This document shows, piece after piece, positions 2,201-22,176 of a DNA stretch of 64,000 nucleotides. Each line of letters starts with the position of its first letter. Positions within the stretch are counted from its first letter, which is position 1. Position numbers and translations under genes: made by a program. The notes below the pieces were generated by a model, which saw only the letters and a list, made by a program, of their open reading frames with translations, was not told the DNA's origin and did no database searches. The stretch covers positions 891,001 through 955,000 of the forward strand of contig NC_015573.1 of assembly GCF_000214705.1 (NCBI RefSeq), written 5' to 3'. This DNA is from Desulfofundulus kuznetsovii DSM 6115. GTDB lineage: Bacteria; Bacillota; Desulfotomaculia; Desulfotomaculales; Desulfovirgulaceae.

Positions 2201-2236
2201 CAGTTGTTTGGTTTTGGTTTTAAAATAAGCCTTGAC

Positions 2237-2692: not shown

Positions 2693-2699
2693 TAAGGTC

Positions 2700-2800: not shown

Positions 2801-2861
2801 CAAGAAGAAGGGAGGGAGGTCCGGGGGTACCGGGCCCGGGCTCCCGGACATAAACGAGGTG

Positions 2862-5800
2862 ATGAAGAAGGCGTTAGCACTTCTGCTGGTTTTTGCGGTT
2901 TTTCTCATACCGTACATGTGGGGAGTTGCACCTGCGGGGGCAGATATATCCACGGGGTCGCAGGTAAAGATAGCGGCTGGCGGTGCTCGCTCTCTCGCGA
3001 TAAAATCCGACGGCACGGTCTGGGCGTGGGGAGGTACCCCCGTGCCGGTACAGAACCTGACCGGCGTGGTGGCGGTAGAGGCTGGTAGTTTTTACTCTCT
3101 CGCGTTGAAGTCCGACGGCACGGTCTGGGCGTGGGGGGATAACTACTACGGCCAGCTGGGCGACGGCACTACCACGAACCGTTACACCCCCGTGCAGGTG
3201 CAGAACCTGACCGGCGTGGTAGCGATAGCGGCAGGTGGAGGGCACTCCCTTGCCTTAAAATCCGACGGCACGGTGTGGGCGTGGGGGTATAACGGCTACG
3301 GCCAGCTCGGTGACGGCACCATCACGAACCGTACCACCCCCGTGCAGGTTAAAAACCTCACGGGCGTGGTGGCGGTGGCGGCAGGTGGAGGGCACTCCCT
3401 TGCCTTAAAATCCGACGGCACGGTGTGGGCGTGGGGGTATAACGGCTACGGCCAGCTGGGCGATGGCACCACCATGAACCGTTACACCCCCGTGCAGGTG
3501 CAGAACCTGACCGGCGTGGTAGCGATAGCGGCTGGTAGTTCTCACTCTCTCGCGTTGAAGTCCGACGGCACGGTCTGGGCGTGGGGGAATAATGGCTACG
3601 GCCAACTGGGTGACGGCACAACTACAAATAGAACCACTCCCGTGCGGGTGCAGGGCCTTACCGACGTGGTAGCGATAGCAGCTGGTAATGAGCACTCCCT
3701 CGCCCTCAAATCCGACGGCACGGTCTGGACGTGGGGGTGGAACTACTCCGGCCAGCTGGGCGACGGCACTACCACGAACCGTTACACCCCCGTGCAGGTG
3801 CAGAACCTGACCGGCGTGGTAGCGATAGCGGCAGGTGGAGGGCACTCCCTTGCCTTAAAATCCGACGGCACGGTGTGGGCGTGGGGGAATAACGACTGGG
3901 GCGAGCTGGGCGATGGCACCAGAACGGACCGTCACACTCCCGTCCAGGTAAGCGGTCTAAACCTGGGCCAGCAGACAACACCCGATACCCTGTTGGTGTC
4001 GCCAGCATCGCTCAGCATTATAGCCGGTCAGACGCAGCAGCTGTCTGTCGTAATGCGGTACTCCGACGGTAGCACCCAGGACGTGACGAACCAGGCCGAC
4101 TACTCCATTGACAACAGCACAGTAGCAACCGTGTCGGCAGCCGGCCTGGTCACTGCAGTGGCGCCTGGTACCGCAACTATCACTGTTACCTGCCAGGACA
4201 AAACGGCAACAGTACCGGTGACGGTGACTAACCCGGTGGTAGTGGAGTCCATCAGCGTGGACCCTGCGGCGTTGTCAATGGTTGCCGGCCAGGCACAGCA
4301 GCTCACGGTGACAGCCCACAAATCCGACGGGACCACTGAAAATGTCACCAACTCTGCTATTTATCAATCGAGCAACGGATCGGTGGCCGCGGTGACGGGT
4401 TCGGGCGAAGTTACAGCTGTTTCTCCTGGTACCGCAACCATCACCGTAAATTACCAGGGTAAGACGGCAAGCGTTTCCGTAGAAGTGGTCGAGCTTTCCA
4501 GCGTTTTGCCCCAGGGGGACATAATCGTACTGAAGGTGCCGCAGCTCCTCCAGCCGGTCACCTACAACTGTGCGACTGGTTTCACGGTGACCGAGAACGG
4601 GGTAAACGTACCGGTAGAAAAAGTGGAAGTCAAGGATGGCTCCGACGGCTGGCCGTACAGCGAAGTCTGGCTGTACCTGGAGCGCCCGGTGACGATGGGC
4701 AGTGATGTAGTGGTACAGTACAACGCCGACCCCAACTGCCCGATAACCCCGGCAAGCGGGGGGACGGTGACCATTCCGGCCAGCACGGCGGCGGTTAACT
4801 ACAGCGCCGCCCCGTTCACCATTGAAAGGTCGACGGTCTACGTTCCTTCGAGCGGCGACGTTATATACGTAGACCTACCGACCAGGGTGAACGCGGTGGA
4901 CTACCAGGGTAGCGCCGGGTTCACCATTCACACCGGATCTGTGACCGTACCGGTGACGCGGGTGGTGGCAGAAGGCACTCAGCTGCGCATTTACCCGGCG
5001 TACAACATTCCATCCGGGGAGCCGGTGTCAATTACCTACACTCCGGTGAGTGGTTATGAGATAACCACCGTCGGTGGGGCGCCCCTGGTGGTGACCACAA
5101 ATCCGGTGGTGGTGACGAACCAGAGCACAGCGCCGCTGGTGTACTACGACCCGGTGGTATCCTCAGACGGCACGACGGTGACCGTGACGGTGCCAGCCGA
5201 CCTGGGTTCGGTCACCTATGAAGGGAACGCTGGTTTCCGGGTGTACGCCAACGGGCAGGAGATCCCCGTTGTGAAAGTAGAACTTGACGGCAACAAGATC
5301 ATCCTGTACCTGGGCGTACCTCTGGTAGCGGGCCAACCGGTCGACGTATCGTACAGCCCGGTGGGAGGGCAACCCATATCGACGCCGAACAACACGCTCC
5401 CGGAACAGTCTGCTGCAGGTGACAACCGGTCTGAAGTAACGCTGGTAGGGTTGGAAGTGGAGCCTGCCGCAGTCAATGTAGAGGAAGGCACGTCGCAGCA
5501 GCTGCATGTGACGGCACGGTATTCCAGCGGTGTTGCGGTGGACGTGACGGGTCTTGCGGCTTACGAGTCGGACAATACGTCGGTAGCCCGGGTATCTGGA
5601 GATGGGTTGGTGACGGGCGTTGGCGCGGGTACGGCAAACATCACGGTAACATACGGGGAGCAGTCGGTAGTAGTGCCGGTGACCGTAGTCAACCCGGCAC
5701 CGGTGCTGGAGAGCATAAGCGTGGTGCCCGCGCGGGTGGACCTGGCGGTCGGAGCAACCTGGCAACTGGCGGTAACTGCTCACTACTCCGACGGGAGCAC

Positions 5801-7067
5801 CCGGGACGTGACGTCCCAGGCTGGCTACAGTTCGGGTGACGTGTCCGTGGCCATGGTAAACAGCAGTGGCCTGGTAACCGGCAAGGCCCAGGGCAGTACA
5901 ACTATCACGGTGAGCTACGAGGGTAAAACCGCGACCGTACCGGTGACTGTGGCGGCTCCGGCAGTGGAATCGATAACTGTTGTTCCTAACCCGGTCAGTA
6001 TAGTGGCAGGCAGGAGCCAGCAGCTGGTGGTAACAGTCCGGTATTCCGACGGTACGGTGCAGGACGTAACCGGTTCGGCTGTTTACCAATCCGGGGGCAC
6101 GTCTGTAGCCCGGGTTGAAGCAGGCGGCGTGGTGACGGGGGTATCCCAGGGCAGCACCACCATCACGGTGGGCTACGGGGGTAAGACCGCGACCGTACCG
6201 GTGACCGTGACAGCCCCGGTGGTTGAATCTCTCACGGTGCAGCCGGGCACCGTGACGCTGGCGGTTGGCGACAGCCGGCAGCTGGCAGTGACGGCGCGTT
6301 TTTCGGACGGCACTACCCGGGACGTTACTGACGGGTCGAGTTACCAGGTGGGGAACTCTACCATTGCAGTTGTTTCCGGGAGCGGGCTGGTAACCGGGTT
6401 GGCTCCGGGGAACACCAGTATTACTGTAGGTTACGCCGGGCAGACGGTCACGGTACCGGTGACGGTGAACGCGCCTCCGGCGGACCTGACCGGGGTAAGC
6501 GTCCAGCCGAACCCGCTGGTGCTGTACAAGGGGAGCTCGCAGCGGTTGAAGGTAACGGAGCAGTACTCCGACGGCAGTTCGGTTGACGTGACCAGTTATG
6601 CGGGATTTCAGAGCAGTGATCCTTCCGTAGCGAAAGTTGACAGTTTTGGGCTAGTGACTGGGGTGAAGGAAGGCACCACGGCTATTCTGGTCACGTACAA
6701 AGGTGAAGTTTACCTGGTGTCGGTGACGGTTGAGCCGGTGGAGGTGACGAGGCCGGGCAGGCCTGGGGACGGCGGCAGTTCCCCGCCTGTGACGAGGCCG
6801 AGCAGGCCCGGGGATGGCAGCAGTCCCCCACCGGTGAGCAACCCGAGCAGGCCTGGGGATGGCAGCAATCCCCCGCCTGTGAGCGGCCCGGACAGGCCCG
6901 GTGGTGCAAATCCCCCGGTGGTGAGCAACCCGGGCGGGCGTGGTAGCAGCGGCAGTCCCGGCGTAGCACCTCCGGCGTTGCCGCGGGGTACGGGTGACGG
7001 CGCGGTGGTGGTGCCGTCCGACAGGCCCCAGCCGGGCGGCGTGCCGGTGACGGGACGGACCAGGTAG
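2862..7067 (+). CDS. Giant secreted RCC1-repeat / Big-domain protein
   Basis: 1401 residues. A Sec signal peptide (MKKALALLLVFAVFLIPY ... APAGA|D) is followed by seven RCC1-type blades (SDGTVWAWG repeated, residues about 35-365). Then come two Big_2-like Ig domains (ITVTCQDKTATVPVTV), a region of about 300 residues with SwmB-like repeats (ITYTPVSG), and five more Big_2-like domains. A Pro/Gly-rich tail (RPGDGSSPPPV units, residues about 1300-1400) ends the protein. No LPXTG motif or C-terminal membrane helix is seen, so it is probably released, or held through the tail. ATG 2862 is chosen for the signal peptide, although GAGGTG abuts it and makes a poor SD. The role is inferred to be adhesion or cell-surface display with the Tad pilus. 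Confidence 0.8.
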   Translation: MKKALALLLVFAVFLIPYMWGVAPAGADISTGSQVKIAAGGARSLAIKSDGTVWAWGGTPVPVQNLTGVVAVEAGSFYSLALKSDGTVWAWGDNYYGQLGDGTTTNRYTPVQVQNLTGVVAIAAGGGHSLALKSDGTVWAWGYNGYGQLGDGTITNRTTPVQVKNLTGVVAVAAGGGHSLALKSDGTVWAWGYNGYGQLGDGTTMNRYTPVQVQNLTGVVAIAAGSSHSLALKSDGTVWAWGNNGYGQLGDGTTTNRTTPVRVQGLTDVVAIAAGNEHSLALKSDGTVWTWGWNYSGQLGDGTTTNRYTPVQVQNLTGVVAIAAGGGHSLALKSDGTVWAWGNNDWGELGDGTRTDRHTPVQVSGLNLGQQTTPDTLLVSPASLSIIAGQTQQLSVVMRYSDGSTQDVTNQADYSIDNSTVATVSAAGLVTAVAPGTATITVTCQDKTATVPVTVTNPVVVESISVDPAALSMVAGQAQQLTVTAHKSDGTTENVTNSAIYQSSNGSVAAVTGSGEVTAVSPGTATITVNYQGKTASVSVEVVELSSVLPQGDIIVLKVPQLLQPVTYNCATGFTVTENGVNVPVEKVEVKDGSDGWPYSEVWLYLERPVTMGSDVVVQYNADPNCPITPASGGTVTIPASTAAVNYSAAPFTIERSTVYVPSSGDVIYVDLPTRVNAVDYQGSAGFTIHTGSVTVPVTRVVAEGTQLRIYPAYNIPSGEPVSITYTPVSGYEITTVGGAPLVVTTNPVVVTNQSTAPLVYYDPVVSSDGTTVTVTVPADLGSVTYEGNAGFRVYANGQEIPVVKVELDGNKIILYLGVPLVAGQPVDVSYSPVGGQPISTPNNTLPEQSAAGDNRSEVTLVGLEVEPAAVNVEEGTSQQLHVTARYSSGVAVDVTGLAAYESDNTSVARVSGDGLVTGVGAGTANITVTYGEQSVVVPVTVVNPAPVLESISVVPARVDLAVGATWQLAVTAHYSDGSTRDVTSQAGYSSGDVSVAMVNSSGLVTGKAQGSTTITVSYEGKTATVPVTVAAPAVESITVVPNPVSIVAGRSQQLVVTVRYSDGTVQDVTGSAVYQSGGTSVARVEAGGVVTGVSQGSTTITVGYGGKTATVPVTVTAPVVESLTVQPGTVTLAVGDSRQLAVTARFSDGTTRDVTDGSSYQVGNSTIAVVSGSGLVTGLAPGNTSITVGYAGQTVTVPVTVNAPPADLTGVSVQPNPLVLYKGSSQRLKVTEQYSDGSSVDVTSYAGFQSSDPSVAKVDSFGLVTGVKEGTTAILVTYKGEVYLVSVTVEPVEVTRPGRPGDGGSSPPVTRPSRPGDGSSPPPVSNPSRPGDGSNPPPVSGPDRPGGANPPVVSNPGGRGSSGSPGVAPPALPRGTGDGAVVVPSDRPQPGGVPVTGRTR
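3006..3960 (+). repeat. Seven RCC1-coding tandem repeats, 150-bp period
   Basis: TCCGACGGCACGGT recurs at 3006, 3111, 3261, 3411, 3561, 3711 and 3861. The first interval is 105 bp and the others exactly 150 bp, i.e. 50 codons. Blocks around 3181-3290 and 3781-3890 look nearly identical at a 600-bp offset, which points to recent duplication or gene conversion. Confidence 0.9.
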
Positions 7068-7079
7068 CGCAAGAGAAAA

Positions 7080-7117
7080 GGGGAGCGGGTGTAAATCCTG
7101 CTCCCCTCTCTTTTTTT
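7080..7117 (+). terminator. Rho-independent terminator after the RCC1/Big gene
   Basis: GGGGAGC at 7080-7086 pairs with GCTCCCC at 7100-7106, followed by TCTCTTTTTTT. It isolates the adhesin from the following Tad operon. Confidence 0.85.
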
Positions 7118-7150
7118 GTGGGACATATTTTTCTGGTTGGGAGGTGGGTT

Positions 7151-8071
7151 GTGGGTGTGTGCCGCGCCTTCCAGGGGAGAGTGCCGCACCCGCTGTTTAT
7201 GGACATCGTGACAAAAGTACGTGAACTCTCGAAGTATTTGAACGACGAGGCTATTGCCGATGCGCTGAAACTTACACCTGAAGCTGTCCGGAGCATTCTG
7301 GAAGGGAAGGCAGAAGTGAAGTTAAAGCAGGTTGAACGGCAGGATCAGGTTGTCCCTCTGATCCAGGTAAGTTCCGTTGAAACGTCGTACAGGCAGAAAA
7401 TTATTTCGGTGGGCAGGGCCAAAGGCGGGGTGGGCTGTACGGTGGTTGCCCTGGGATTGGCCTACCTGTTGAGCAAAAAAGTCAGGACGCTGCTTATTGA
7501 CCTTAACTTTTCGGAAGGGGGGAGCGATTTGTCTTATTATCTCAACCTTCCTGAGTACCCGCACATGGGTTCATTTTTGGGCGACCTGGAGCAGTGCGTA
7601 ATTAACCTGGAGCCGAACTTTTCTGTCCTGCAGACACCAAAGCACACCAACAGTAAAAGACAAGAGATCGGTAAGTTTATCAATCTTGCCCGGCAGGACT
7701 ACGATGCAGTTGTGATGGACCTGCCGAATTTGCAGGACGGCCTGGTGCAGGAGGCAATGCAGCACTCTACGACGCTGGTTCTGGTAACGAGCGGTCTGGA
7801 GCCCGAACTGGTACGGCTGGCCGCGATAGCGGGCAGGTACCAGCGGAAGGAAGTCATTGTGGCCGTAAACAGGGGCAGTTTGCCGGGTGAAGCCGCAGAA
7901 GCATTTAAAAAGGTAGTCTATATCGAGCATGATGACAGCCTTCTGAAAACCCTGCAGAACTGCGACCTCCCGGGCGAAAAGACTACGTTCATGCACGGGG
8001 TCGCCAGCATCAGGGATGCTATTTACAACAATGACAGGAAAAGCATCCTGCAGAAGATCCTGGGGTTTTGA
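7151..8071 (+). CDS. cpaE: Second CpaE/TadZ-like ATPase with altered P-loop
   Basis: 306 residues. The N-terminal segment near residues 25-60 resembles a small helical DNA-binding fold (YLNDEAIADALKLTPEAV). The ParA/MinD fold starts near residue 85 with RAKGGVGCTVVALG: the Lys that normally precedes Thr in the Walker A is Cys. CpaE/TadZ families often have degenerate P-loops, so weak or absent ATP hydrolysis is likely. GTG 7151 has GGGAGGTG 5-12 bases upstream. It begins the tight cpaB-cpaF-tadB-tadC run and so is probably the pilus-dedicated paralogue. Confidence 0.8.
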   Translation: MGVCRAFQGRVPHPLFMDIVTKVRELSKYLNDEAIADALKLTPEAVRSILEGKAEVKLKQVERQDQVVPLIQVSSVETSYRQKIISVGRAKGGVGCTVVALGLAYLLSKKVRTLLIDLNFSEGGSDLSYYLNLPEYPHMGSFLGDLEQCVINLEPNFSVLQTPKHTNSKRQEIGKFINLARQDYDAVVMDLPNLQDGLVQEAMQHSTTLVLVTSGLEPELVRLAAIAGRYQRKEVIVAVNRGSLPGEAAEAFKKVVYIEHDDSLLKTLQNCDLPGEKTTFMHGVASIRDAIYNNDRKSILQKILGF

Positions 8072-8093
8072 ATAAGGAGGAGGTCTTTGAGAA

Positions 8094-8783
8094 TTGTTCA
8101 AAAAGCCTTTGTTCAAACGTATTTTGCTGATAATAATAGCTCTGGCCATAGGCGGGTACTCCACGTTCCAGCTGAAAACGTTCCTTGAGCGGAACGGGCC
8201 GACGGAACAGGTCCTAGTAGCCAGGCGGGACATCATGCCGCAGGCAGTGATCGCATCGGGCGACATTGGTTTTGCCGACCTCCCCGTAGGGAGCAGGATA
8301 CCCGGCTCCTTACAGGACCCGAAAGAAGTGGTAGGGAAGAAAGCCGTAATGACCATTTTTAAGAACGAACAGATACTCCCTCAAAAACTTGCCGACGCCA
8401 ACCTTGCGCTTGGTTCCGGGGAAAGACAGGTGGGTCTCCCTACAGATGTTGTGAGTGCGGTGGGTATGACCATTAAACCGGGGGACATTGTGGACGTATA
8501 CTGGCAACTACCTGATGAAAAAGGGCTGCCGTCCTCAAAGGATCAGCCCGGGGTCCAACAGGCCCGGAAGATAGCGGAGTATGCGGTGGTCGTCGATTTG
8601 ATAAATAAGAACAATACCAGCGCATACAGTGCTGCTACCGCGCTTCCGGAAGAAAGGAAGCGGGGTACCGTGGACGACACACCTTCAGTCGTTGTTCTAA
8701 AGGTAAAAAGCGATTACGTTCAGGCTATTGCGACCGCCGTTGGAAACGGCAGGATTTATCTCGTAAAGAGGGGGAATGGATAG
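8094..8783 (+). CDS. cpaB: Flp pilus assembly protein CpaB
   Basis: 229 residues. One N-terminal membrane helix (residues 8-24, ILLIIIALAIGGYS) is followed by a SAF domain (VLVARRDIMPQAVIASGDI) and an RcpC/CpaB region (GDIVDVYWQLPD). CpaB is a periplasm or wall-facing Tad component that may contact peptidoglycan. TTG 8094 is preceded by TAAGGAGGAGG. The stop overlaps the GTG of cpaF by one base, showing translational coupling. Confidence 0.85.
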   Translation: MFKKPLFKRILLIIIALAIGGYSTFQLKTFLERNGPTEQVLVARRDIMPQAVIASGDIGFADLPVGSRIPGSLQDPKEVVGKKAVMTIFKNEQILPQKLADANLALGSGERQVGLPTDVVSAVGMTIKPGDIVDVYWQLPDEKGLPSSKDQPGVQQARKIAEYAVVVDLINKNNTSAYSAATALPEERKRGTVDDTPSVVVLKVKSDYVQAIATAVGNGRIYLVKRGNG

Positions 8784-10090
8784 TGGATATTAGGCTTGGC
8801 GAAAAGCATCTGCATGAAGCGACTGCAATTATACAGGAGCTGCTTGCTGATCCCCGCGTCAATACAGAAGAGCTGGAAAAGATATTCTGGCTGGCCAAAG
8901 CCGGGTACCCAGGGTACGATGTGAAGGCCCGAGAAGCAGTCGAGTCGTTGATGAAAAAATATGGTCTAACGGTATCCGGAATGCCCGACGGGGAAGCCGC
9001 GCAGAAAATATACGAGTACCTGTGGGGTTTAGATGTAGTGGAAAGCCTTTACAGGATGCCCCATGTGAACGAAATTCGTGTCAATGGCCCCCGAAAGATT
9101 TACTACCAGTATCAGGGTAAAAATATGCGTGCCGAAGAAATTTGTTTTAAAGACAGCGAACACATCCGCAAAATTATAGCCCGTATGCTGGAACATGACA
9201 GAGCATATCTGGATGAAAGCAACCCTGGATGCGAGTCCCGGAGGCTTGATGGCACCAGGCTTACGGCTCTAACGTATCCCGTTACCAAGGAACCCTGCTT
9301 TATATTGAGAAAACATGGTACTTTCGATATGTCACAGGATAACTACATCGAGAGCGGCACAATGAGCGAATATATATTGAACCTGCTGGTTGTTCTGGTT
9401 AAAGGTCGTGCCAACATCCTGATCAGCGGCAGTGCAAATACCGGGAAGACGACTCTTTTACGTTTTCTAGTGAAATATCTGCACCCGAGGCTTCGTATTG
9501 TCACTCTTGAAACCGACAGGGAACTATTTTTGGACGAGTGGTACCCGGACAGGGACATAATTTCCCTGGAAGCCCATCCCGAGCTGGGCTGGGATATGAG
9601 GAGATGTTTTGTGATTGTTTTAAGGCTGTCTCCCAATGTGATTATAGTGGGCGAAGCCCGGGGGATTGGTGAAGCGGGACAGATGATCAACGCTGTCCGG
9701 AGCGGCCACACGGGGATGGGGACGCTCCATACGCTTTCCGTATACGAAGCCGTAAGCACACTTGCATTGATGGCCCTGGAAGAGGGACGGAAACTTCCTG
9801 TTCCGTTGCTGGAAGATCAGATAGCTTCCGGTTTCGATGTAATAATCCAGATGTATGGTAATGATGTTACCGGTACTATAAGGATAGAACACGTGGTGGA
9901 AGTCTCGAAGGGGAAAAACGGTCCTGAGTTCAGGGACTTATGCATTTGGGAGCCTTCGAATGAAAGCTATGAACAGGGAAAATGGCGGTATCCATGCGGC
10001 ATATCGGAAATGCTGGCCCAAAAGCTCTTTAAATTTGGCGTTACCCGTTCTGAACTTGAACAATTGGAAGGAATGAGGGCAAATGCATGA
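8783..10090 (+). CDS. cpaF: Tad pilus assembly ATPase CpaF/TadA
   Basis: 435 residues. Residues 70-200 carry the CpaF N-terminal fold (HVNEIRVNGPRKIYY). A Walker A GSANTGKTT is near residue 214, and VIIVGEARGIGEAGQ supplies Walker B and the Asp-box region, followed by SGHTGMGTLH. This is the secretion-ATPase superfamily motor that drives Flp assembly at the inner face of the membrane. It overlaps cpaB by 1 base and tadB by 8 bases. All catalytic motifs look intact. Confidence 0.92.
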   Translation: MDIRLGEKHLHEATAIIQELLADPRVNTEELEKIFWLAKAGYPGYDVKAREAVESLMKKYGLTVSGMPDGEAAQKIYEYLWGLDVVESLYRMPHVNEIRVNGPRKIYYQYQGKNMRAEEICFKDSEHIRKIIARMLEHDRAYLDESNPGCESRRLDGTRLTALTYPVTKEPCFILRKHGTFDMSQDNYIESGTMSEYILNLLVVLVKGRANILISGSANTGKTTLLRFLVKYLHPRLRIVTLETDRELFLDEWYPDRDIISLEAHPELGWDMRRCFVIVLRLSPNVIIVGEARGIGEAGQMINAVRSGHTGMGTLHTLSVYEAVSTLALMALEEGRKLPVPLLEDQIASGFDVIIQMYGNDVTGTIRIEHVVEVSKGKNGPEFRDLCIWEPSNESYEQGKWRYPCGISEMLAQKLFKFGVTRSELEQLEGMRANA

Positions 10091-11015
10091 TTACGCATTT
10101 CTGCTCGGGGCGGCAGTACCGTGTGTGGTAGTATCTATGTACATCTTGGAAGGGATGTGGAAGGGTTGGGAAAAGGTTAACAAAAGAGTGGAGGTTTTGC
10201 AAAGGCGCAAGCGGATGCTCGCCTCTCTGCCGGAGGTAATCAGCAGGGCGTATGAAGCACGCGGGAACAGGAACCAGCTGTACAGTTATCTAGACAGTCA
10301 GATGAAAAGGATTGAGTGGAACATTCAGCCCGCGGCATTCCTTGCGCTGTCCGTTACTGCCGCCATTGCGGGTCTGGTGACGGGATTATTTTTACTGAGG
10401 AACATTGCGTCGGCAGTCGCCATTATGGTGATTGCCGTTTTCGTTCCTTTCCTTGTACTTAGCTGGAAGGTACAGAAGCACGAACAAAGGGTACTCGAAC
10501 AACTTCCGATGGCTATACAGCTGTTCACCGTAGAGTTTGAAATGACTAAAAGCATAGCCCAGGCGTTGGCACGCGTCTCTGAGATCGCGGCAAATCCACT
10601 GAAAAGATACCTGTCGCAGTGCGCCAAGGATTTGACCGCCGGCAAGCAGTCGGCCAGGGTGTTCAATAAGTTTTCTTCAGACCTGAACTGCGAGTACGGG
10701 CGGCTCTGGGCGCAAATCCTGCTGGCCGCTCATGAAGACTCCACGGTGATGAAGATAATGCCGCGTTTAATAAGCCGTCTGCACCAGCAGAGACTGCTGA
10801 TACAGAAAAACCTCACCGAGTTGAGCGGGACCAGGAGACTGGGTGTGCTGCTCAATATCCTGGTGGTCCCCGGCTTTATAATCACCCAGGTACTGTTCCC
10901 CGATACACTGGAATTCTACTCTCAACCCATTGGGCGGGCCGTCATCCTGGTCCTGTTTTTATCTGTAACCGCAGGTATCGTGCTGGATCAGACGCTTAAA
11001 AAAATTGACCTTTAA
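10083..11015 (+). CDS. tadB: Tad platform protein TadB (T2SSF family)
   Basis: 310 residues. There are hydrophobic helices near residues 4-22, 78-97 and 102-120 and two at the C-terminus (residues about 258-300). A cytoplasmic T2SSF domain with LEQLPMAIQLFTVEFEM lies between them. TadB and TadC form the membrane platform that couples CpaF to pilus extrusion. ATG 10083 lies within the end of cpaF. Confidence 0.85.
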   Translation: MHDYAFLLGAAVPCVVVSMYILEGMWKGWEKVNKRVEVLQRRKRMLASLPEVISRAYEARGNRNQLYSYLDSQMKRIEWNIQPAAFLALSVTAAIAGLVTGLFLLRNIASAVAIMVIAVFVPFLVLSWKVQKHEQRVLEQLPMAIQLFTVEFEMTKSIAQALARVSEIAANPLKRYLSQCAKDLTAGKQSARVFNKFSSDLNCEYGRLWAQILLAAHEDSTVMKIMPRLISRLHQQRLLIQKNLTELSGTRRLGVLLNILVVPGFIITQVLFPDTLEFYSQPIGRAVILVLFLSVTAGIVLDQTLKKIDL

Positions 11016-11027
11016 AGGGGGATTTAT

Positions 11028-11837
11028 ATGCGACCTGTACAACTCCAACCGGTTGACATTCTAGAAAGATGTATTGGTTATCTGGCTCCCTGGTGGGATG
11101 AAATCTTCCTGGCATTGATATTTGTCACCATTGCTTACGTTACCGGGCGAATACTTGAACTTCTGGCCGGCCGCAGGTATCACCGCAGAATCGGAAGAAT
11201 CGGGGTCGGAAAACTTGAGAATGTGGATAAGAAGAAATTATATTCCGTGATGGTGGGTGCGCTAATTGGCTACTCCATCGCAAGTCCCAACTTACTGCTG
11301 GCCGTACCGTGTGCCGTTTCAGGAGGGTTGCTGGGATACCTCGGGGTGGTGGCTTACAATTGGTTCGTTAAAAAGCTTACCGAAGAAAAAAAAGCCGGCG
11401 AGATCCTGCTCCTGTACGAGGTGGTGAGCGTCTATGCTGTTTCCGGTTATTCCCTGTATGAAGCCCTTACAGCCGGTGCATACCTGGTCAGATTGATTAA
11501 AGATCCCCTGCGCCGGTGCCTCAACAGCTGGGGTCAGGGCCCGGAGCGGGCGCTTCAAAAACTGGGGAAGGAATTGGGACTGCCGGAAGCGGACGCGCTG
11601 GTCAGGATACTGCAAAGAGCTCTGGTAATTGGTCCGGGCAGGCTGGCGGAGTATTTGAGCCAGGAAGGTAAGACCATGGAGAATGTAAGGCAGTTCAGGA
11701 TAGAACGGGGCCTGGGCGTGCGCCCGATAATACAGACACTATACTTATTATTGCCCGGTCTTGCTTTGGTGGGGGTAACGTTGATGCCCGTGGGGTACCA
11801 CATTTCCAGGCTGATCATGTCAATCAAACTGAATTAG
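11028..11837 (+). CDS. tadC: Tad platform protein TadC (T2SSF family)
   Basis: 269 residues with two N-terminal hydrophobic stretches (FLALIFVTIAYVTG; residues 75-110), a cytoplasmic T2SSF-like part with LLYEVVSVYAVSGYSLYEAL, and C-terminal helices (LLLPGLALVGVTLMP). It follows TadB after 12 bases, with AAAGGGGGA before ATG 11028. The sequence is more divergent than TadB, but position and topology support TadC. Confidence 0.8.
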   Translation: MRPVQLQPVDILERCIGYLAPWWDEIFLALIFVTIAYVTGRILELLAGRRYHRRIGRIGVGKLENVDKKKLYSVMVGALIGYSIASPNLLLAVPCAVSGGLLGYLGVVAYNWFVKKLTEEKKAGEILLLYEVVSVYAVSGYSLYEALTAGAYLVRLIKDPLRRCLNSWGQGPERALQKLGKELGLPEADALVRILQRALVIGPGRLAEYLSQEGKTMENVRQFRIERGLGVRPIIQTLYLLLPGLALVGVTLMPVGYHISRLIMSIKLN

Positions 11838-11930
11838 AAAAACCGGAGGGAGAAACGCGAGGGGGCAGTAATTCCCCTCAGTTCACCGGGAGGATGTCAT
11901 AACCGTTTTCTATGGAAGGGGGTCTTATTT

Positions 11931-12083
11931 ATGTTCAAAGGCGAACGGGGGTCAACCCTGGAGTACCTGATAAGGATTATCATTATGGGTCTCGGTGGAG
12001 CTACAATACTTTTCGGCATACTGGCTGCATTACGTTTGCAGGGGGGTGTATTAATTGAAAGAATTGGCCGTATGGGCTTCTGA
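11931..12083 (+). CDS. Flp-like prepilin 2 (50 residues)
   Basis: 50 residues. A seven-residue leader (MFKGERG) is followed by STLEYLIRIIIMGLG and a hydrophobic helix. This is the same G-x-x-x-E prepilin pattern as the gene at 2432. GAAGGGGG precedes ATG 11931 by 8 bases. It overlaps the prepilin peptidase start by 29 bases in another frame. It is probably a minor pilin processed by the neighbour. Confidence 0.7.
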   Translation: MFKGERGSTLEYLIRIIIMGLGGATILFGILAALRLQGGVLIERIGRMGF

Positions 12084-12609
12084 TTTTCGTTACCTGCCCT
12101 ATGCAATGGCCCTCCTGGGGGCTGGTATATCGGTCTATACCGATATCAAATGGGAGAAGATCAAGAACTGCGTTACTTTCCCTCTAATACTCTTTGGTTG
12201 GCTGTGGCCTTTTTTATCAGGCAACTGGCGGCTTGGTATTGTAAACGTTCTGCTCTCCTGTTTCATTGGGCTTCTGTCGTGCCTGACGGGAAAGATAGGC
12301 GAAGGGGACATCAAGCTCATTGTCGGGATAGCCGCCTGTCTGCAGCCCCTGTTGGGGTTTATTTTTCTCGCTTTTTTCTTTGTAAACCTGGCTGCCGCTG
12401 CCGTCTTCGTGCGGCTTAAAATCTACGGGTTTAAACTTAAACCGGCCTTTGCGGCTATGAAAAGAGAAGCCATGCTGGAGCTGGGCGGAGTAAAAGATGC
12501 TAACGTTGTCGTGCATGGGAAAAGAGTAAAACACATCGGGGCACCGATAATATTTCTGGCCCTGGTGTTTTGCCTCATCAGGGCCGTATGGGAGGGATTT
12601 TTAACATGA
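12055..12609 (+). CDS. cpaA: Prepilin peptidase CpaA/TadV (A24 family)
   Basis: 184 residues, four to six membrane helices. Both catalytic aspartates are visible: YTDIKWEKIKN (near residue 30) and GEGDIKL (GxGD, near residue 85). This membrane aspartyl protease removes prepilin leaders, here probably those of the three small prepilins. The C-terminal 60 residues are a soluble or amphipathic extension ending in one more helix. TTG 12055 has GGGGGGTG upstream, and the stop overlaps the next ATG (ATGA). Confidence 0.88.
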   Translation: MKELAVWASDFRYLPYAMALLGAGISVYTDIKWEKIKNCVTFPLILFGWLWPFLSGNWRLGIVNVLLSCFIGLLSCLTGKIGEGDIKLIVGIAACLQPLLGFIFLAFFFVNLAAAAVFVRLKIYGFKLKPAFAAMKREAMLELGGVKDANVVVHGKRVKHIGAPIIFLALVFCLIRAVWEGFLT

Positions 12610-12776
12610 AAGAATTTTTGCTCTCTGAAAAAGGGGGAATCGTAGAATGGCTGGTAGGCGCGCTGATCATAGGTATCGGGTCGTTCCCCATAATTGCGGG
12701 GATAACCAATGCCCTGCTGCAGGTATCAGGAGAAGGCGAGGAGCGGATCAGGGACATCATCTGGACGGGTTATTGA
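12606..12776 (+). CDS. Flp-like prepilin 3 (56 residues)
   Basis: 56 residues. The leader MKEFLLSEKG is followed by GIVEWLVGALIIGIG and a hydrophobic helix, then a short acidic tail (GEGEERIRDI). The same G-x-x-x-E cleavage context appears as in prepilins 1 and 2. ATG 12606 overlaps the cpaA stop and has GGAGGG upstream. Confidence 0.7.
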   Translation: MKEFLLSEKGGIVEWLVGALIIGIGSFPIIAGITNALLQVSGEGEERIRDIIWTGY

Positions 12777-13201
12777 AAGGGGAGGACGGCTGGGTAATCA
12801 TCGAAATGCTTGTTGCCCTGTTCGTCCTCTCCTTTCTCCTATTTGCGGCAGTGGAATACTGGGGGGTATTGACCATATACCAGCACACCGAGAGTTTGAA
12901 ATACCACACCCTGTCGAAGATGGAGGTGGCGGGCGGGCTGTACCCTTCAGATGAGCAGGACCTGGTCAAAAAGCTGATTGATTTAGGAGCCGATCCGGCA
13001 ACGATTAAAATTGAAGGAGACGTCAAGGAAGAAGGAGAAGCGCCCGTTCTTTGGCCAAACGAAGTCAGCCTGCGGATAGAATTTATCCCGGAGTATTTCA
13101 ACAACTTTATGGCGAGGACGCTGATCGGGGGCAGCCCCGGCAAACCTATCAGGATCGGGGTGAAAGGGAGTGCGGTCAGTCAGAGAACCGAGTCGGATTA
13201 G
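12773..13201 (+). CDS. TadE/pseudopilin-like protein
   Basis: 142 residues. KGEDGWVIIEMLVALFVLSF gives a type IV-pilin-like N-terminus with Glu at +5 after Gly and a 20-residue hydrophobic helix. The rest is a soluble domain with no cysteines. TTG 12773 overlaps the previous TGA, so translation is probably coupled. It is likely a minor pseudopilin of the TadE/TadF type. The family match rests on topology and position. Confidence 0.65.
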   Translation: MKGEDGWVIIEMLVALFVLSFLLFAAVEYWGVLTIYQHTESLKYHTLSKMEVAGGLYPSDEQDLVKKLIDLGADPATIKIEGDVKEEGEAPVLWPNEVSLRIEFIPEYFNNFMARTLIGGSPGKPIRIGVKGSAVSQRTESD

Positions 13202-13784
13202 CTGCGGTGAGGCGGGGTCCATTGTGGTTGCGCTCCCCCTGGCCTTGATGATGTTTATTGTTCTGGTTTTGGCCGTAAGGACTTCCCAGGACGTCTTTTC
13301 AGCGGACGTGGTACTCAAAAACTCTGTGGCGGTAGCGGTTAAGGCGGCCGCCGACCAGTTCGACAGGGAAAATTTACAGATTGACTTCCGCCGGGCGCGG
13401 AGGGCCTTTGAAAAGATGCTGCAGGAGAACCTGGAGTTAAAAGGAAACCTCGAGCCCCGGAAGTATTCCGCTTTCTCCGGCAGACCCGCTTACACCCTGA
13501 TAGTCTACGATGGGCAGGCTTCCAAGAAAAGACCTGCGGGTGTGCAGTATATTTACGGGGACGGGAAATTGACGGAGACGGAAATTCCAGGCGAGGGGTT
13601 CCCGAGGACGTTTGTTCTGCCGGGTGGCATAAAAGTCACACTCCACTCTCCCGGAGCGGTGGCGGAAGTAGGCGTAAATTCGAAGAAAGTATTTGGTAAT
13701 GAGGTAGTCTACAGAAGGTGGGCAGCAGCAAGGATTGTGCAGAGGGACCAGGAATGGATAGTGGTATTAGTGGGAAAAGATTAA
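13170..13784 (+). CDS. TadE/F-like pseudopilin
   Basis: 204 residues. A short leader ending in CGEAG is followed by a hydrophobic helix (SIVVALPLALMMFIVLVLAV) and an extracellular domain. There is no Glu at +5, as in some TadE/TadF/TadG proteins. It overlaps the upstream gene by 32 bases from GTG 13170 and is followed by a terminator, so it closes the Tad operon. Confidence 0.6.
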   Translation: MRSVREPSRISCGEAGSIVVALPLALMMFIVLVLAVRTSQDVFSADVVLKNSVAVAVKAAADQFDRENLQIDFRRARRAFEKMLQENLELKGNLEPRKYSAFSGRPAYTLIVYDGQASKKRPAGVQYIYGDGKLTETEIPGEGFPRTFVLPGGIKVTLHSPGAVAEVGVNSKKVFGNEVVYRRWAAARIVQRDQEWIVVLVGKD

Positions 13785-15185: not shown

Positions 15186-16289
15186 ATGATTAAGCGCAGG
15201 GCATTAATTTCCATACTGGCCATTCTTCTGCTTGCCGTCCTGGCCCTCCCGGCCCTGGCCCAGCAGGAGAAGGTGGACGTCTACGAAAACCAGAAGCTGG
15301 TCAAGTCCGTGGTCTTCGTGGTCGGCACCAGGGAATACTTCGTCAACGGCCAGACTCCCGGGGTCAAGATGGACGTTGCCCCGTTTGTAGAACAGGGCCG
15401 CACCTTCGTCCCCGTGCGTTTCCTGAGCAACGCCCTGGGGGTGGAGGACAGGAATATCGGGTGGAATGAGAAGGCCTGGCTGGTCACGCTGAAACAGCCC
15501 GGGTTTCCCGTAGTGGAAATGACTGTGGGTAAAAAGCAAATCAAATCCGACGGTCAGGCCAGGGACATGGATGTGTCCCCCCTGGTCAGGAGCGGGCGTA
15601 CCTTCCTGCCGGCCCGGTGGGTGGCCGAGGCCCTAGGCTACCAGGTGGAGTGGGACGCCTCCCTTGGCCTGGTAGTGTGCTGGCCCAGGGGGGAAGAGAA
15701 GCCGGACCTGAGCGCGGTTAAGCAATATCTTAACGAGCAGAAACCGGCTGAAGAACCAGCTGAAGAACCGGTTGAACCGGTAAATCCTGTTGGTACCCTC
15801 AAGGAGCTTCTTGCTAAGGCCAAGCCGATTGAAGGTAAGCCGTTCAGCTTCAGCAGTTGGAAGTTTGACCCGGAGATTCAAGAACGGTTGCAAAGGTTCT
15901 GGAGTGATGATGAAACTGGTCCGGTAATACAGGAGGTTTCTGTTAGCGAACTTCACCCCAACGGAATCAAAGTGGGGAGAGAGGAAATTATTCATGATGT
16001 AAAAGTAGCTAAAGATAGTGTAACCATTACCGCAAGCGACCCCGGTCGTTCGTTGCCGTTTTTCTACCTCGTCGAGGAAGGTAACGTAGTGCGCTATGAA
16101 GGCGGTGGAGGGTATATGGGCAAAGAAACCGGGACGTTGAGTGTACCCGTTGAGCATATCCGTGCTTGGACACCTGACGGTATGCAAACTCTTCCCCCAG
16201 TCGACCTGACCAAAGTGACCCACATCATGTTTGAATTTGGCGGGGAGATCCTGCTGGTCAAGAACCCGCTGTACAGGGGGGGTAATTGA
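15186..16289 (+). CDS. Secreted stalk-domain (copper amine oxidase N-like) protein
   Basis: 367 residues. Signal peptide MIKRRALISILAILLLAV...ALAQ. Two stalk-type repeats follow (RTFVPVRFLSNALGV near residue 75 and RTFLPARWVAEALGY near residue 140), then an EEPAEEPVEPV linker and an unassigned C-terminal domain of about 170 residues. Stalk domains are common in surface proteins of clostridia and bind other domains or the wall. ATG 15186 has AAAGGAG upstream. Its stop overlaps the TTG start of the CARDB gene, so the two are probably made together. Confidence 0.8.
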   Translation: MIKRRALISILAILLLAVLALPALAQQEKVDVYENQKLVKSVVFVVGTREYFVNGQTPGVKMDVAPFVEQGRTFVPVRFLSNALGVEDRNIGWNEKAWLVTLKQPGFPVVEMTVGKKQIKSDGQARDMDVSPLVRSGRTFLPARWVAEALGYQVEWDASLGLVVCWPRGEEKPDLSAVKQYLNEQKPAEEPAEEPVEPVNPVGTLKELLAKAKPIEGKPFSFSSWKFDPEIQERLQRFWSDDETGPVIQEVSVSELHPNGIKVGREEIIHDVKVAKDSVTITASDPGRSLPFFYLVEEGNVVRYEGGGGYMGKETGTLSVPVEHIRAWTPDGMQTLPPVDLTKVTHIMFEFGGEILLVKNPLYRGGN

Positions 16290-17779
16290 AAGTGTTGAGA
16301 AAACTGATCAGCTGGGTGCTGATGACGGCGTTGGTTTTAGGAGCCGTCCCATATTGCGGGACGGCTTCAGCATTGCCCGGCGGTGAAGGTGAACAGGTAG
16401 TCAAGCAGGAAGTTATCGTCGGCTACTTTGACATCTGGAAAGGGGACACCTGGCAGGACACTAACCGTGACGGGAGACCGGACATGCCCGGGCAGAAAGG
16501 GAAAACTTACACCAATACCTACTCCGCCGCGGAGAAACTGAAGGACTGGACGCTGACCAGGGTGGAAGTGAAGTACCCCTTCAGCCGGGAAGAATACGAG
16601 GCTGCTGGCGGCAGGCAGTACGGTTATGATGGGAGTTTATGGTACGACCCTGATACGGGGGAACCGAAAATGTCGTGGGATAAATTTAAACGTTGGTATT
16701 TAAAACACCTCCCCCAAAACCTTTCAGCAAAGATAGCCAGCCAGGACCTGGCTGGTGGGAAAGCTGTAGTTAAGTGGACATTGGATCTTGCCCTACTTTC
16801 TAACGCCTTGAACCTCAAAGACCCCGAAAACCGCCGGTACATCGGGTACGAGCCGGATAACTTCGGCGAACTGGTGGAAGGCTGGCGGTGGTACCTCCCG
16901 GCGATCATCACGTGGTACGGTGTGCCCAAGCAACAAACCGACCTGGTGGCGGTCAGCATTGACCCCGGTACGGGGGAAGCCGACCCCGGCGGGAAGTACA
17001 CCGGGAGAGTTACGTTCAGGAACGACTCAAGTATAAAGCTGACCGGGGTACCGGTTGAGGTGCGTTCCAACGGAGCGGCTGTTCTTTCTACAACGGTGGA
17101 CTTTGGGCCTGGCGAGACCAGAACCTTCACCTTTACCTGGACGGCACCCGGATCCGGAGTGGTTGAGCTCAAGGGCGTTATCAACGGGAGCCGCAAAATC
17201 CAAGAGACCCGCTACGACAACAACGAGGTAAAGGTTCTGGTACCGGTTAAAGAAAAACAGACCCCGTCCGGTCCCGGATCCCTCACCTTCCAGGCGGTGA
17301 GCCAGGACAGGAGCATAACCAGGCCGCCGAACACGGCGAAGTGGACGGACTGGGTGACGGCCACGCTAAAACCTCCTGCTCCGAAACCTCCGCGGGGCTG
17401 GCTGGAGTGGTGGAAGATAACCAGCGCCGACCTGACCTACCCGAAGAAGAACCCTGAATTCACTTTTGGCACGCCCTACCCGCCCGTGGGGACCGTGACG
17501 GTTCCCATGAAACCGAACGGCCACGAGGCGAAGGTGGAGTTTCAGGAGGACTGGGGCATGGACGGTGCCAAGATATACTCGATCCTGGAGAGGAAGATGA
17601 TGGCCGAGAATCCGAAGGAATATAAGCTGACGGCCAGGTACACTGTGGAATACAAGTACTGCTGGATAGAGTGCGACGAGGACGGGTGCTGGACGGAGTG
17701 CGCCACGGCGACCACTTCCGGCACGGTTTCCGGCAACCTCCTGGTGAACGGTACAGGCGTTGACAGCAGGGCACAATGA
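16286..17779 (+). CDS. Full-length CARDB secreted protein (copy 2)
   Basis: 497 residues. Signal peptide (KLISWVLMTALVLGAVP). Residues 40-225 are unassigned. A CARDB domain lies at about 228-330 (VTFRNDSSIKLTGVPVEV, then DNNEVKVLVPV), followed by a C-terminal domain with a Cys cluster. TTG 16286 overlaps the upstream stop. The last 217 codons are nearly identical to the fragment at the start of the window. Likely an extracellular partner of the stalk-domain protein. Confidence 0.78.
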   Translation: MKVLRKLISWVLMTALVLGAVPYCGTASALPGGEGEQVVKQEVIVGYFDIWKGDTWQDTNRDGRPDMPGQKGKTYTNTYSAAEKLKDWTLTRVEVKYPFSREEYEAAGGRQYGYDGSLWYDPDTGEPKMSWDKFKRWYLKHLPQNLSAKIASQDLAGGKAVVKWTLDLALLSNALNLKDPENRRYIGYEPDNFGELVEGWRWYLPAIITWYGVPKQQTDLVAVSIDPGTGEADPGGKYTGRVTFRNDSSIKLTGVPVEVRSNGAAVLSTTVDFGPGETRTFTFTWTAPGSGVVELKGVINGSRKIQETRYDNNEVKVLVPVKEKQTPSGPGSLTFQAVSQDRSITRPPNTAKWTDWVTATLKPPAPKPPRGWLEWWKITSADLTYPKKNPEFTFGTPYPPVGTVTVPMKPNGHEAKVEFQEDWGMDGAKIYSILERKMMAENPKEYKLTARYTVEYKYCWIECDEDGCWTECATATTSGTVSGNLLVNGTGVDSRAQ

Positions 17780-20297: not shown

Positions 20298-20325
20298 ACA
20301 GCCGGGCTGGAGCCCGGCTGTTTTT
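20298..20325 (+). terminator. Terminator after the c-di-GMP operon
   Basis: ACAGCCGGGCT and AGCCCGGCTGT are perfect arms around a 2-base loop, followed by TTTT. Confidence 0.9.
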
Positions 20326-20342
20326 GTGGGGAGGGGATTGCT

Positions 20343-21683
20343 TTGGTTGGTATCTCATACGCATTTCTGTCGGTTGCGTCTTTACTGTTCTGGAAAATTG
20401 GGTGTACTTCAGGAGCTTGTTCTATATTTTCCTCCTGGGGCCTCCTGGACCGCTCCTGGTGGCTGTGGGGAGCGCTTTACTACTCGGTTGCGGGTATTCT
20501 TTGTCTGGGTCTGCCGAAGAACCGGTTGACAGGAGCTTTTCTGGCTGCTGGAGCGGTATTCCACGCGGGGCTGGTCGGGTACGGTTACGTCGCAACCGGA
20601 TCTGTCTGCCCGGTCTGCTGGAAGTTTGCAGCTATGGGTGTGTTGCTGGCCGTATTTTACCTGATTTCACCGGACAAACAGCCCGGGCGGATGGTTTATG
20701 TATCTGCCGGTCCCGCCCGGGCACTGGCGGTGGTAGTCCTGGCACTGCTGATTGTCAATCCGGGTACGGAGCCGGTTGTTGCCCTGCCCGCGACTGCGGC
20801 AGTGGCAGCGGGTGTGGAAAGTCACTCTGACAGCATTAAAAAAGCCGGGCCGGACCCGGTTGAAAAGGCAGCTTCCTACAAGCTCCGGGTATCCACCCCG
20901 GACGGAGAGGAAACGTACCTGGACCTGCGGGAAAAACCCGCCCTGTTTTTCGCGGCATGGTGCCCGCACTGCCCGGAAGCGCTGAAAGACGCGGCCAGGC
21001 TGTTGCCGGGAAAACGTCCATATCTGATTGTCACTTACTTGCGCGAAGAAGGGGACATCGGAAAAGCGAAAGCAAAGCTGGCTGAAAATGGCCTGACCGG
21101 GGAGCCGTACTACCTGGTCCAGTCTCCACCCGAAGGCGTCCAGGGTGTACCTTCTCTGGTCTGGTGGGACGGTGGTGAAGTAAAGCATGTTGAAGGTGCT
21201 GCATTAATCAAAAAGGAGCTGGGTGTACCAGAACTTCTGGGGTACGCCGAGATCCCGAACCCGCCGGACGGGGGTGGGAAGAACGCGGCATTGGCGGCAG
21301 CACTGATAAACGGCAAGATAATCCAGCCTGGCGAAGTGTACAGCTTCAACCGGGCTGTGGGGCCGCGCACGGTATCCAGGGGTTTTGTGGAAGGGAGGTC
21401 CGTTGTCGAGACGGTTTATGGCCCCAAATTGGTGCCGGACGTAGGCGGTGGCGTCTGCAGGGCCTCTACCGCCCTTTACCTGGCGGTGCTGGACGCGGGT
21501 CTGGAGGTGGTGGAACGTCACGGCCACAGTATGCCCGTGAGCTACGCCGAGCCGGGTAAGGATGCAGCAGTGGCCTGGCCGTACTGGGATTTCCGGTTCA
21601 GGAACACGGCAGGGAAACTTCTGGTAATCAAAACCCGTAGTGATTACGGAAGACTGAGGGTGGAATTATGGGCGTTCCAGTAA
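20343..21683 (+). CDS. VKOR-thioredoxin-VanW fusion protein
   Basis: 446 residues. Residues 1-165 are four or five membrane helices with the VKOR-type cysteine pairs (GCTSGACS near residue 22 and SVCPVCWK near 95). Residues 185-300 form a thioredoxin-like domain with FFAAWCPHCPEAL. Residues 300-446 are a VanW domain (GEVYSFNRAVGPRT, GGGVCRASTALYLAVL, ERHGHSMPVSY). VKOR-Trx fusions make disulfides outside the membrane. VanW is found in surface and antibiotic-resistance loci and its exact role is unclear. TTG 20343 follows GGGGAGGGGA. The three-part fusion is unusual. Confidence 0.8.
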   Translation: MVGISYAFLSVASLLFWKIGCTSGACSIFSSWGLLDRSWWLWGALYYSVAGILCLGLPKNRLTGAFLAAGAVFHAGLVGYGYVATGSVCPVCWKFAAMGVLLAVFYLISPDKQPGRMVYVSAGPARALAVVVLALLIVNPGTEPVVALPATAAVAAGVESHSDSIKKAGPDPVEKAASYKLRVSTPDGEETYLDLREKPALFFAAWCPHCPEALKDAARLLPGKRPYLIVTYLREEGDIGKAKAKLAENGLTGEPYYLVQSPPEGVQGVPSLVWWDGGEVKHVEGAALIKKELGVPELLGYAEIPNPPDGGGKNAALAAALINGKIIQPGEVYSFNRAVGPRTVSRGFVEGRSVVETVYGPKLVPDVGGGVCRASTALYLAVLDAGLEVVERHGHSMPVSYAEPGKDAAVAWPYWDFRFRNTAGKLLVIKTRSDYGRLRVELWAFQ

Positions 21684-21716
21684 CCTGGTGTCCCCGCGTC
21701 GCTTGCTGCTGGGCTG

Positions 21717-21890
21717 GTGCCCCACGGAATACCGGAGTTTTCGGCGCTGTTCCTGGTCTGCGGCGCCGGGATGTCCGGGAGCACTTTTAAGCAGAAGGCT
21801 GTGATGTTCCGGCAGGCGGTGATTCCCCTGCTTGCGGCGGCAGTGATAGAAACATGGGTTACACCGGAAATAATGCGTCTTGTAAGATGA
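21717..21890 (+). pseudogene. SpoIIM C-terminal remnant
   Basis: GTG 21717 begins 57 codons with LVPHGIPEFSALFLVCGAG and PEIMRLVR, which resembles the PHGIfElpA motif and C-terminal end of SpoIIM-family membrane proteins (about 200 residues). The reading frame is the same as that of the VanW fusion and is separated from it only by TAA 21681-21683. No SD is obvious, so it is probably a remnant. It could instead be a read-through tail or a real 57-residue membrane peptide. Confidence 0.45.
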
Positions 21891-21912
21891 CAAATTGCGG
21901 GAGGGATGTCAT

Positions 21913-22176
21913 TTGGAACTGCTGAAGGTATCTTCCAGAACTGACACCAGGAAACTCGGGAAGGCGTTGTATCAAGCGCTCAGGAAAAATGGCGGAGAAG
22001 CCGTCCTCCAGGCCGTTGGTGCCGGGGCGGTCAACCAGGCCGTGAAAGGGGTAGCCGTGGCGCGGGGTCTGGCGGCCCCGGAGGGCGCTGACTTAAAGGC
22101 GGTGCCGGGGTTGGTAAAAGTAGAAATGGACGGAACTGAGAAGACGGCGGTGCGATTCCGCGTGTTTTGGCGGTGA
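21913..22176 (+). CDS. spoVS: Stage V sporulation protein S-like (SpoVS)
   Basis: 87 residues. LELLKVSSRTD followed by AVGAGAVNQAVKGVAVARG is the SpoVS/Alba-like signature, and the length is that of the family. SpoVS is a small nucleic-acid-binding-type protein affecting sporulation and septation. TTG 21913 has GGGAGGGA 6 bases upstream. This copy is divergent from the highly conserved chromosomal SpoVS (long insertion-free but altered C-terminus), so it is probably a paralogue. Confidence 0.8.
   Translation: MELLKVSSRTDTRKLGKALYQALRKNGGEAVLQAVGAGAVNQAVKGVAVARGLAAPEGADLKAVPGLVKVEMDGTEKTAVRFRVFWR

Follow-up and report, generated by a model that had tools for sequence, protein, structure and literature searches.

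In the window, as we call the whole 64,000-nucleotide stretch analysed (Desulfofundulus kuznetsovii DSM 6115, contig NC_015573.1, positions 891,001 to 955,000), a VKOR-like membrane bundle, a thioredoxin domain and a VanW domain are joined in a single protein, and genes of this kind recur beside loci that resemble those of Tad (Flp-type) pili. The fusion, its conservation, its locus, the catalytic-type residues it has kept and the purifying selection acting on it can all be read from the sequences compared. Our tentative interpretation, which falls a little short of an even chance, is that of a membrane protein with two jobs, oxidase and wall enzyme, in a Tad pilus-like locus. The original prediction had proposed the fusion and missed the link to such a locus.

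Structure of the fusion gene

The source genome is a single contig of 3,601,386 bases. The reading frame of the fusion gene is uninterrupted from a TTG at 20343 to the stop codon, and passes through the VKOR-like bundle, the thioredoxin domain (WCPHC) and then VanW. The same frame is open further upstream, to a TTG at 20196, but a start there would overlap the gene before it, and alignment with the relatives begins at the TTG of 20343. The gene and its immediate surroundings comprise the following features.

20305-20319 (+): terminator-like stem-loop and T run, in the gap that separates the fusion gene from its predecessor (pattern scan only)
20330-20336 (+): ribosome-binding-site-like GGAGGGG, 6 nt 5' of the TTG (read from the sequence)
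20343-21683 (+): VKOR-like / thioredoxin / VanW fusion gene, 446 aa, TTG start (frame, Pfam, alignment, homologous fusions)
20346-20753 (+): VKOR-like bundle of TM1, half helix and TM2-TM5 (cysteine conservation, predicted helices, modest fold match, Pfam VKOR for relatives)
Codons 20403 and 20418 (+): VKOR-like loop cysteines C21 and C26 (alignment A2)
Codons 20607 and 20616 (+): VKOR-like CPVC, C89 and C92 (alignment A2)
20877-21242 (+): thioredoxin-fold domain (alignments, profile match, fold matches)
Codons 20961 and 20970 (+): thioredoxin WCPHC, C207 and C210 (alignments)
21147-21152 (+): thioredoxin V269-P270, at the cis-Pro place (alignments)
21279-21671 (+): VanW domain (Pfam, 141.4 bits; alignments)
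Codons 21456 and 21525 (+): VanW GGGVCR with C372, and H395 (alignments)
21895-22176: SpoVS gene (domain annotation)

The pattern scan for terminator-like stem-loops found 9 sites in the region against 4.9 expected. Between the fusion gene and SpoVS, positions 21684-21890 may hold the remnant of a SpoIIM-like gene, read by eye only. Basic loops lie between TM2 and TM3 (PKNRLTG) and between TM4 and TM5 (PDKQPGR), so that by the positive-inside rule, in our reading, the cysteine pairs, the thioredoxin domain and VanW would be outside the membrane.

Identity of the three domains

On its Pfam score the VanW identity of the C-terminal domain is certain, at 141.4 bits with PF04294 against a gathering cut-off of 27. 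The conserved cysteine and histidine of the VanW family are present as C372 and H395, and the cysteine sits in a family-wide GGGxC motif shared by all 37 aligned domains. The single conserved cysteine originally predicted for this domain (GGGVCRAS) is indeed its lone cysteine in seven of the eight fused genes, the eighth (L040) having two. With one cysteine the fused domain is unable to form a disulfide of its own, and a disulfide inside VanW was ruled out for those seven. VanW-type L,D-transpeptidases are treated in parts of PMC12729407, PMC11986978 and PMC12274547, and an excerpt of the first, a review, describes a triad of cysteine, histidine and a small residue. By its place in the motif, the fused cysteine matches the catalytic cysteine of these enzymes and would be its counterpart. 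It is followed by R in the fused domains as against Q in longer VanW proteins, which counts against wall-enzyme activity, and the excerpt also records VanW proteins in which L,D-transpeptidase activity is absent. The role of VanW, called unclear when the fusion was first proposed, is no longer wholly so, since the same part of PMC12729407 has it recognised, only in 2024, as a second L,D-transpeptidase family; the description still fits some members, which it lists as having no known role. Identity with the VanW of glycopeptide resistance (NCBIfam NF033128) was rejected at 50.3 bits against an equivalog cut-off of 365. The whole-protein model is poor over VanW (pLDDT mostly under 55) and no inference was drawn from it there; Foldseek with this model gave no match at E <= 0.001, and the isolated VanW domain, searched against solved structures, hit only a DARPin at E 0.46.

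The membrane part is named VKOR-like, and not a filed VKOR member, because it stays below the Pfam gathering score: the window protein reaches 9 bits with PF07884 (E 1.9) against a cut-off of 27.5 bits. The two fusions of this genome are recorded at 11.4 and 21.8 bits, and the best score printed for any relative, 25.7 bits, is still below the cut-off. At E <= 0.1 the family is found in six of the ten rows of alignment A2 (best 1.2e-4), the window row not included. The loop cysteine pair and the CxxC at TM4 that characterise VKOR are present as C21, C26, C89 and C92, invariant in 10/10 rows of A2; in alignment A1 the C21 column is variable, the two loop cysteines being spaced differently from row to row. 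The model predicted for residues 1-301, with three rows and a mean pLDDT of 63.8, has a helix order that fits a VKOR bundle with a half helix after TM1, at a pLDDT of about 50-70 there. Its residues 1-112 match human VKOR at Z 10.6 and 3.2 A, and residues 1-301 match Synechococcus VKOR at Z 10.2-10.3 with an rmsd of 11 A, in a range where helical bundles (under about Z 13) may share only a common arrangement. An unrelated helical chain scores Z 9.3 on the same model residues, close behind human VKOR, so the fold alone leaves the VKOR assignment undecided. The bundle is divergent in sequence, and its fold match to VKOR is modest.

The thioredoxin part, to which the Pfam search of the window protein gave no thioredoxin match, has a profile match to 5um7 (E 3.2e-5), and in the predicted model its fold matches DsbF and ResA at Z about 11. 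It has the CxxC and cis-proline of a thioredoxin fold in C207, C210 and P270, all invariant in A2. A CPHC motif together with a VKOR-like partner points to oxidation rather than reduction. The PDB title of 3c71 names CPHC DsbA-like, and the motif suggests an oxidising activity for this part.

Related fusions and reduced forms

The search for a VKOR and VanW architecture that accompanied the original prediction as a check proved productive. A whole-protein search of 113 genomes of the order found the fusion in five genomes of three genera, with eight fused genes in all when that of the window is counted: two copies in D. kuznetsovii itself (G000), two in D. australicus (G061), two in G057, and one each in G062 and G015. 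All seven cysteines are present in seven of the eight, and these seven are complete. Relatives matching over the whole length are 38-74% identical to the window protein, the second own-genome copy 71%; a scan of the genome contigs gave only two loci. The union of a VKOR/thioredoxin pair with VanW in one protein was thus borne out as a conserved arrangement, with the proviso that the VKOR part is only VKOR-like. The concern that an assembly frameshift, or faulty annotation, had joined two genes deserves next to no credence: seven further fused genes in five genomes have the same joint, one of them at a second place in this single-contig genome.

One relative is shortened. The second D. australicus copy (L037:4543-5727, minus strand) is matched only from residue 75 on, having lost in frame the region with all four VKOR cysteines while keeping WCPHC and the VanW cysteine and histidine. 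Its downstream SpoVS-like gene and next neighbours are the same as those of the window gene, of which it is likely the ortholog. Compared with the window gene it is a mosaic, with a dS of 0.011 in the thioredoxin domain but 0.372 in VanW, which suggests recombination. The VanW cysteine and histidine are retained despite reduced redox parts in this copy, where the VKOR core is deleted, in G058, which has neither VKOR CxxC nor thioredoxin, and in G069, with no thioredoxin on the chain.

When the window gene is compared with three whole copies (dS 0.47-1.19), dN/dS is 0.22-0.27 in the VKOR-like part, 0.15-0.21 in thioredoxin, 0.14-0.18 in VanW and 0.40-0.46 in the linker. Between the other Desulfofundulus copies, the second own-genome gene and that of G061, the ratios are 0.16, 0.32, 0.18 and 0.30 in the same order. 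Against the second D. australicus copy, VanW gives 0.13; the thioredoxin ratio of 1.02 is meaningless because there are almost no changes (dS 0.011). These ratios indicate purifying selection on all three domains. In both trees, built from VKOR-Trx rows above 90 bits and from VanW rows with a GGG[VIL]C[RQ] motif, the fused genes split into two groups, with weak deep branches that allow one fusion event or two. At E <= 0.001 the VKOR-Trx profile finds 28/113 genomes of the class and 25/398 of a phylum sample, many of these matches being weak and thioredoxin-only. Strong matches (180 bits or more) outside the class occur in G256, G208, G365, G188, G488 and G470, whose fetched loci gave no VanW match.

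Association with Tad-type loci

The fusion gene lies downstream of a Tad-like cluster that spans 707-13784 and ends 6.5 kb before it, with HD-domain and GGDEF genes in between. The genes concerned are these.

707-2200 (+): CpaE/MinD-like ATPase (Pfam CbiA, 44.5 bits; CpaE role by position)
2760-7067 (+): large RCC1 / Big_2 protein within the cluster, probably exported (Pfam)
7118-8071 (+): second CpaE/MinD-like ATPase (Pfam AAA_31, 32.4 bits)
8094-8783 (+): CpaB/RcpC Flp-pilus assembly protein (Pfam RcpC 42.8 bits, SAF 34.2 bits)
8783-10090 (+): TadA/CpaF-type secretion ATPase (Pfam T2SSE, 95 bits)
10083-11015 (+): TadB-like membrane protein (own HMM 412 bits, itself a seed; no Pfam over cut-off)
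11028-11837 (+): TadC-like membrane protein (own HMM 345 bits, itself a seed; no Pfam over cut-off)
12055-12609 (+): prepilin peptidase, A24 (Pfam, 31.7 bits)
12647-13201 (+): pseudopilin-like protein, family F2 (recurs in other loci; no Pfam over cut-off)
13170-13784 (+): possibly TadE-like protein, family F1 (recurs in other loci; no Pfam match itself)
16286-17779 (+): CARDB protein with C-terminal four-Cys cluster (Pfam CARDB, 32.1 bits; cysteines read from the sequence)

The cluster thus has the TadA ATPase, CpaB, prepilin peptidase and TadB/C-like genes of a Tad/Flp locus, the TadB/C genes by our own HMMs only; one relative of the F1 protein reaches 14.1 bits with Pfam TadE, below the cut-off. 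With a terminator-like stem before the fusion gene and the Tad-like genes ending 6.5 kb upstream, co-transcription is no more than possible. By eye, nearly identical versions of the CARDB C-terminal part (31-651 and 16286-17779) stand on either side of the cluster.

The association is not confined to the window. VKOR-Trx genes co-occur with TadA, TadB, TadC, CpaB, prepilin peptidase and F1/F2, as found by HMMs built from the first loci. Counted against the listed Tad-type ATPases of the genomes concerned, 33 of the 38 profile matches in the 113 genomes lie within 16 kb of one and 25 within 5 kb; the 38 are all the matches in the class, the ten profile rows included, some are weak and to the thioredoxin part only, and a single ATPase accounts for both G061 copies. 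The five matches with no listed ATPase within 16 kb are those of G066, G096, G059, G067 and one of G056, G096 and G066 having only weaker ATPase-like matches nearby. Counted the other way, 17 of 22 best Tad ATPases have a VKOR-Trx match within 16 kb and five, which count against the association, have none; this count is partly circular because half of the 22 went into the ATPase profile and every one of those 11 has a match; among the 11 non-profile ATPases the figure is six. G057 has a fusion at each of its two Tad-like loci, and the second own-genome fusion adjoins a second Tad-like locus. At that locus, L180:132-2411 on the minus strand holds TadA-like and TadB-like matches in one frame of 759 aa.

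VanW itself may be tied to these loci. When 37 VanW domains were placed in a tree, all eight from fusion genes grouped with two lone domains (L045 of G069 and L117 of G058) in one branch of moderate support (88/82). Both lone genes have a Tad-type ATPase at a distance of 12-16 kb, and the shared branch supports the link to Tad. Directly before the lone VanW of G069, an ORF (L045:6833-7378, plus strand) has VKOR-like helices and a CPYC and no thioredoxin, and in L117 VanW is joined to a membrane part with neither CxxC nor thioredoxin. These likenesses are weak, the best BLAST E values being 0.007 and 0.058 in a ten-sequence database, and the VKOR-Trx HMM found neither. As both genes are near Tad without the full redox parts, the tie of this VanW branch to Tad-like loci seems to need no redox parts. 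Among 28 lone-VanW loci (L045 and L114-L140, mostly the best-scoring lone matches and no random draw), none had TadA, TadB or TadC within the fetched stretch, and L114 had a weak CpaB-like match; for L045 and L117, the two whose adjoining stretch was read, it carries Tad-like genes. Thioredoxin proteins that are distant from these and have a CxxC in their membrane part (L065-L072) also neighbour Tad-type ATPases, a hint that thiol oxidoreductases may be a general accessory of Tad-type loci. The literature showed no paper tying VanW or VKOR-Trx genes to Tad-like loci among the open-licence matches listed; the VanW match in PMC9187656 is an author's name.

Candidate clients and redox inventory

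Which exported proteins could such an oxidase serve? Many Tad-like loci encode F6, a protein of about 690-770 aa with an Ig-like domain (Pfam Ig_Rha78A_N at 485-578, 46.5 bits) that is bracketed by a cysteine pair in 16/16 full-length members compared. The F6 set comprises 30 loci, each from a different genome out of 31, with second F6 genes (that of G049, for example) outside the cysteine count. A VKOR-Trx match of at least 50 bits occurs in 14/16 genomes with full-length F6 vs 3/12 with the short form only (p 0.0015, uncorrected for kinship), G029, G094 and G108, with partial F6 matches only, being left out of both groups. With the thioredoxin-only G016 removed the figures are 13/16 vs 3/12 (p 0.006), and with no bit cut (E <= 0.001) they become 15/16 vs 8/12 (p 0.13). 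As a client F6 is weakened by this dependence on the cut and by the window Tad-like locus, which has no F6 match. The F1 and F2 families have cysteine pairs in part of their rows only. Within the window, the CARDB protein at 16286-17779 carries a CWIECDEDGCWTEC cluster, and our guess is that it is exported and a local client of the fusion.

In the genome that carries the window, neither DSBA nor DsbB was matched at E <= 0.001, and of three weak VKOR matches, none over the cut-off, two are the fusions themselves; the third (13.1 bits) was set aside, its frame not looking like a membrane protein. Three YkuD-family genes are present as well, as is a third VanW gene that lies in a longer frame. 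The lack of a DSBA or DsbB match and the position of both VKOR-like genes by Tad-like loci raise the idea that envelope disulfides may here be kept for a surface appendage.

A proposed two-job enzyme and its alternatives

In the reading that we tentatively prefer, the oxidase would consist of the VKOR-like bundle with the thioredoxin domain attached to it. The thioredoxin CPHC would oxidise cysteine pairs of proteins that leave the cell through the pilus machine or close to it, and would be re-oxidised by the VKOR loop pair C21/C26 and the CPVC pair C89/C92, with electrons passing to quinone. VanW, outside the membrane, would use C372 and H395 to cleave peptidoglycan stems around the base of the pilus and link them anew, making room for the pilus or fixing pilus surface proteins to the wall, and the fusion would put both envelope steps at one site. 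What we infer in this scheme is the direction of the oxidase, the quinone, the clients, and what VanW does and on which substrate; the low VKOR Pfam scores, the modest fold match and the D. australicus copy without VKOR cysteines were counted against it. For VanW, a branch of the family that goes with Tad-like loci and is often joined to a redox module offers a defined place and a testable partner.

Could the thioredoxin be there for VanW itself? Since the two are physically linked, the original prediction had VanW folding or activity depend on a disulfide made by the attached pair; this is very improbable, with one cysteine in 7/8 domains, at the family's catalytic-type place, and kept where the redox parts are reduced. 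Tethered to a single-cysteine VanW, the thioredoxin might alternatively reduce the catalytic-type cysteine or hold it in a mixed disulfide, so that cross-linking follows redox state, much as DsbG, in a passage of a review (PMC3526765, citing Depuydt 2009), prefers wall transpeptidases with a single essential cysteine. Such a guard or switch is rather unlikely, as many Tad-like loci have VKOR-Trx matches without VanW, VanW near Tad-like loci persists without thioredoxin or without VKOR cysteines, and the CPHC motif with a VKOR-like partner (another VKOR-DsbA figures in part of PMC12453122) suggests oxidation, not reduction. The membrane bundle might also mainly anchor VanW at the Tad machine, with redox and wall activities uncoupled. 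The D. australicus copy that lost its four VKOR cysteines in frame and kept thioredoxin and VanW would fit this, as would the CxxC-less membrane part joined to VanW in G058, but six redox cysteines kept in 7/8 fused genes and 10/10 A2 rows, and dN/dS of 0.15-0.27 in the VKOR and thioredoxin domains between whole copies, make anchoring alone an account we would bet against. A quinone-linked thioredoxin that both finishes exported pilus-locus proteins and controls the cysteine of the attached L,D-transpeptidase is something of a long shot. If it is true, the Tad pili of some thick-walled anaerobes would have a dedicated redox-and-wall enzyme, and a pilus fastened to the wall, or let through it, only when its proteins are oxidised would amount to a redox switch on cross-linking.

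Relation to known systems

DsbG, in a passage of PMC3526765, is said to protect the single active cysteine of E. coli wall transpeptidases, and like the fusion it pairs a thioredoxin-fold protein with a single-cysteine wall transpeptidase; it is described there as a separate protein kept reduced by DsbD, whereas the fusion has an attached VKOR-like module. LdtCd4 and LdtCd5 of Clostridioides difficile resemble the fusion in being membrane-attached VanW proteins with conserved cysteine and histidine, and are set apart by their descriptions in portions of PMC12729407 and PMC11986978, which give a TM helix and PG4 domains and no VKOR-Trx. With known Tad/Flp pilus loci the window shares TadA, CpaB, prepilin peptidase, MinD-like ATPases and TadB/C-like genes; unlike them, the loci here carry VKOR-Trx or VKOR-Trx-VanW genes. 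Similar in layout are Synechococcus VKOR (3kp9, 4nv5) and a clostridial VKOR-DsbA, which according to extracts of PMC12453122 gives an E. coli dsbA dsbB mutant back its motility. In both, a VKOR bundle with cysteine pairs is followed by a thioredoxin fold, whereas the present fusion is divergent, scores below the Pfam cut-off, has an additional C-terminal VanW domain and lies by Tad-like loci.
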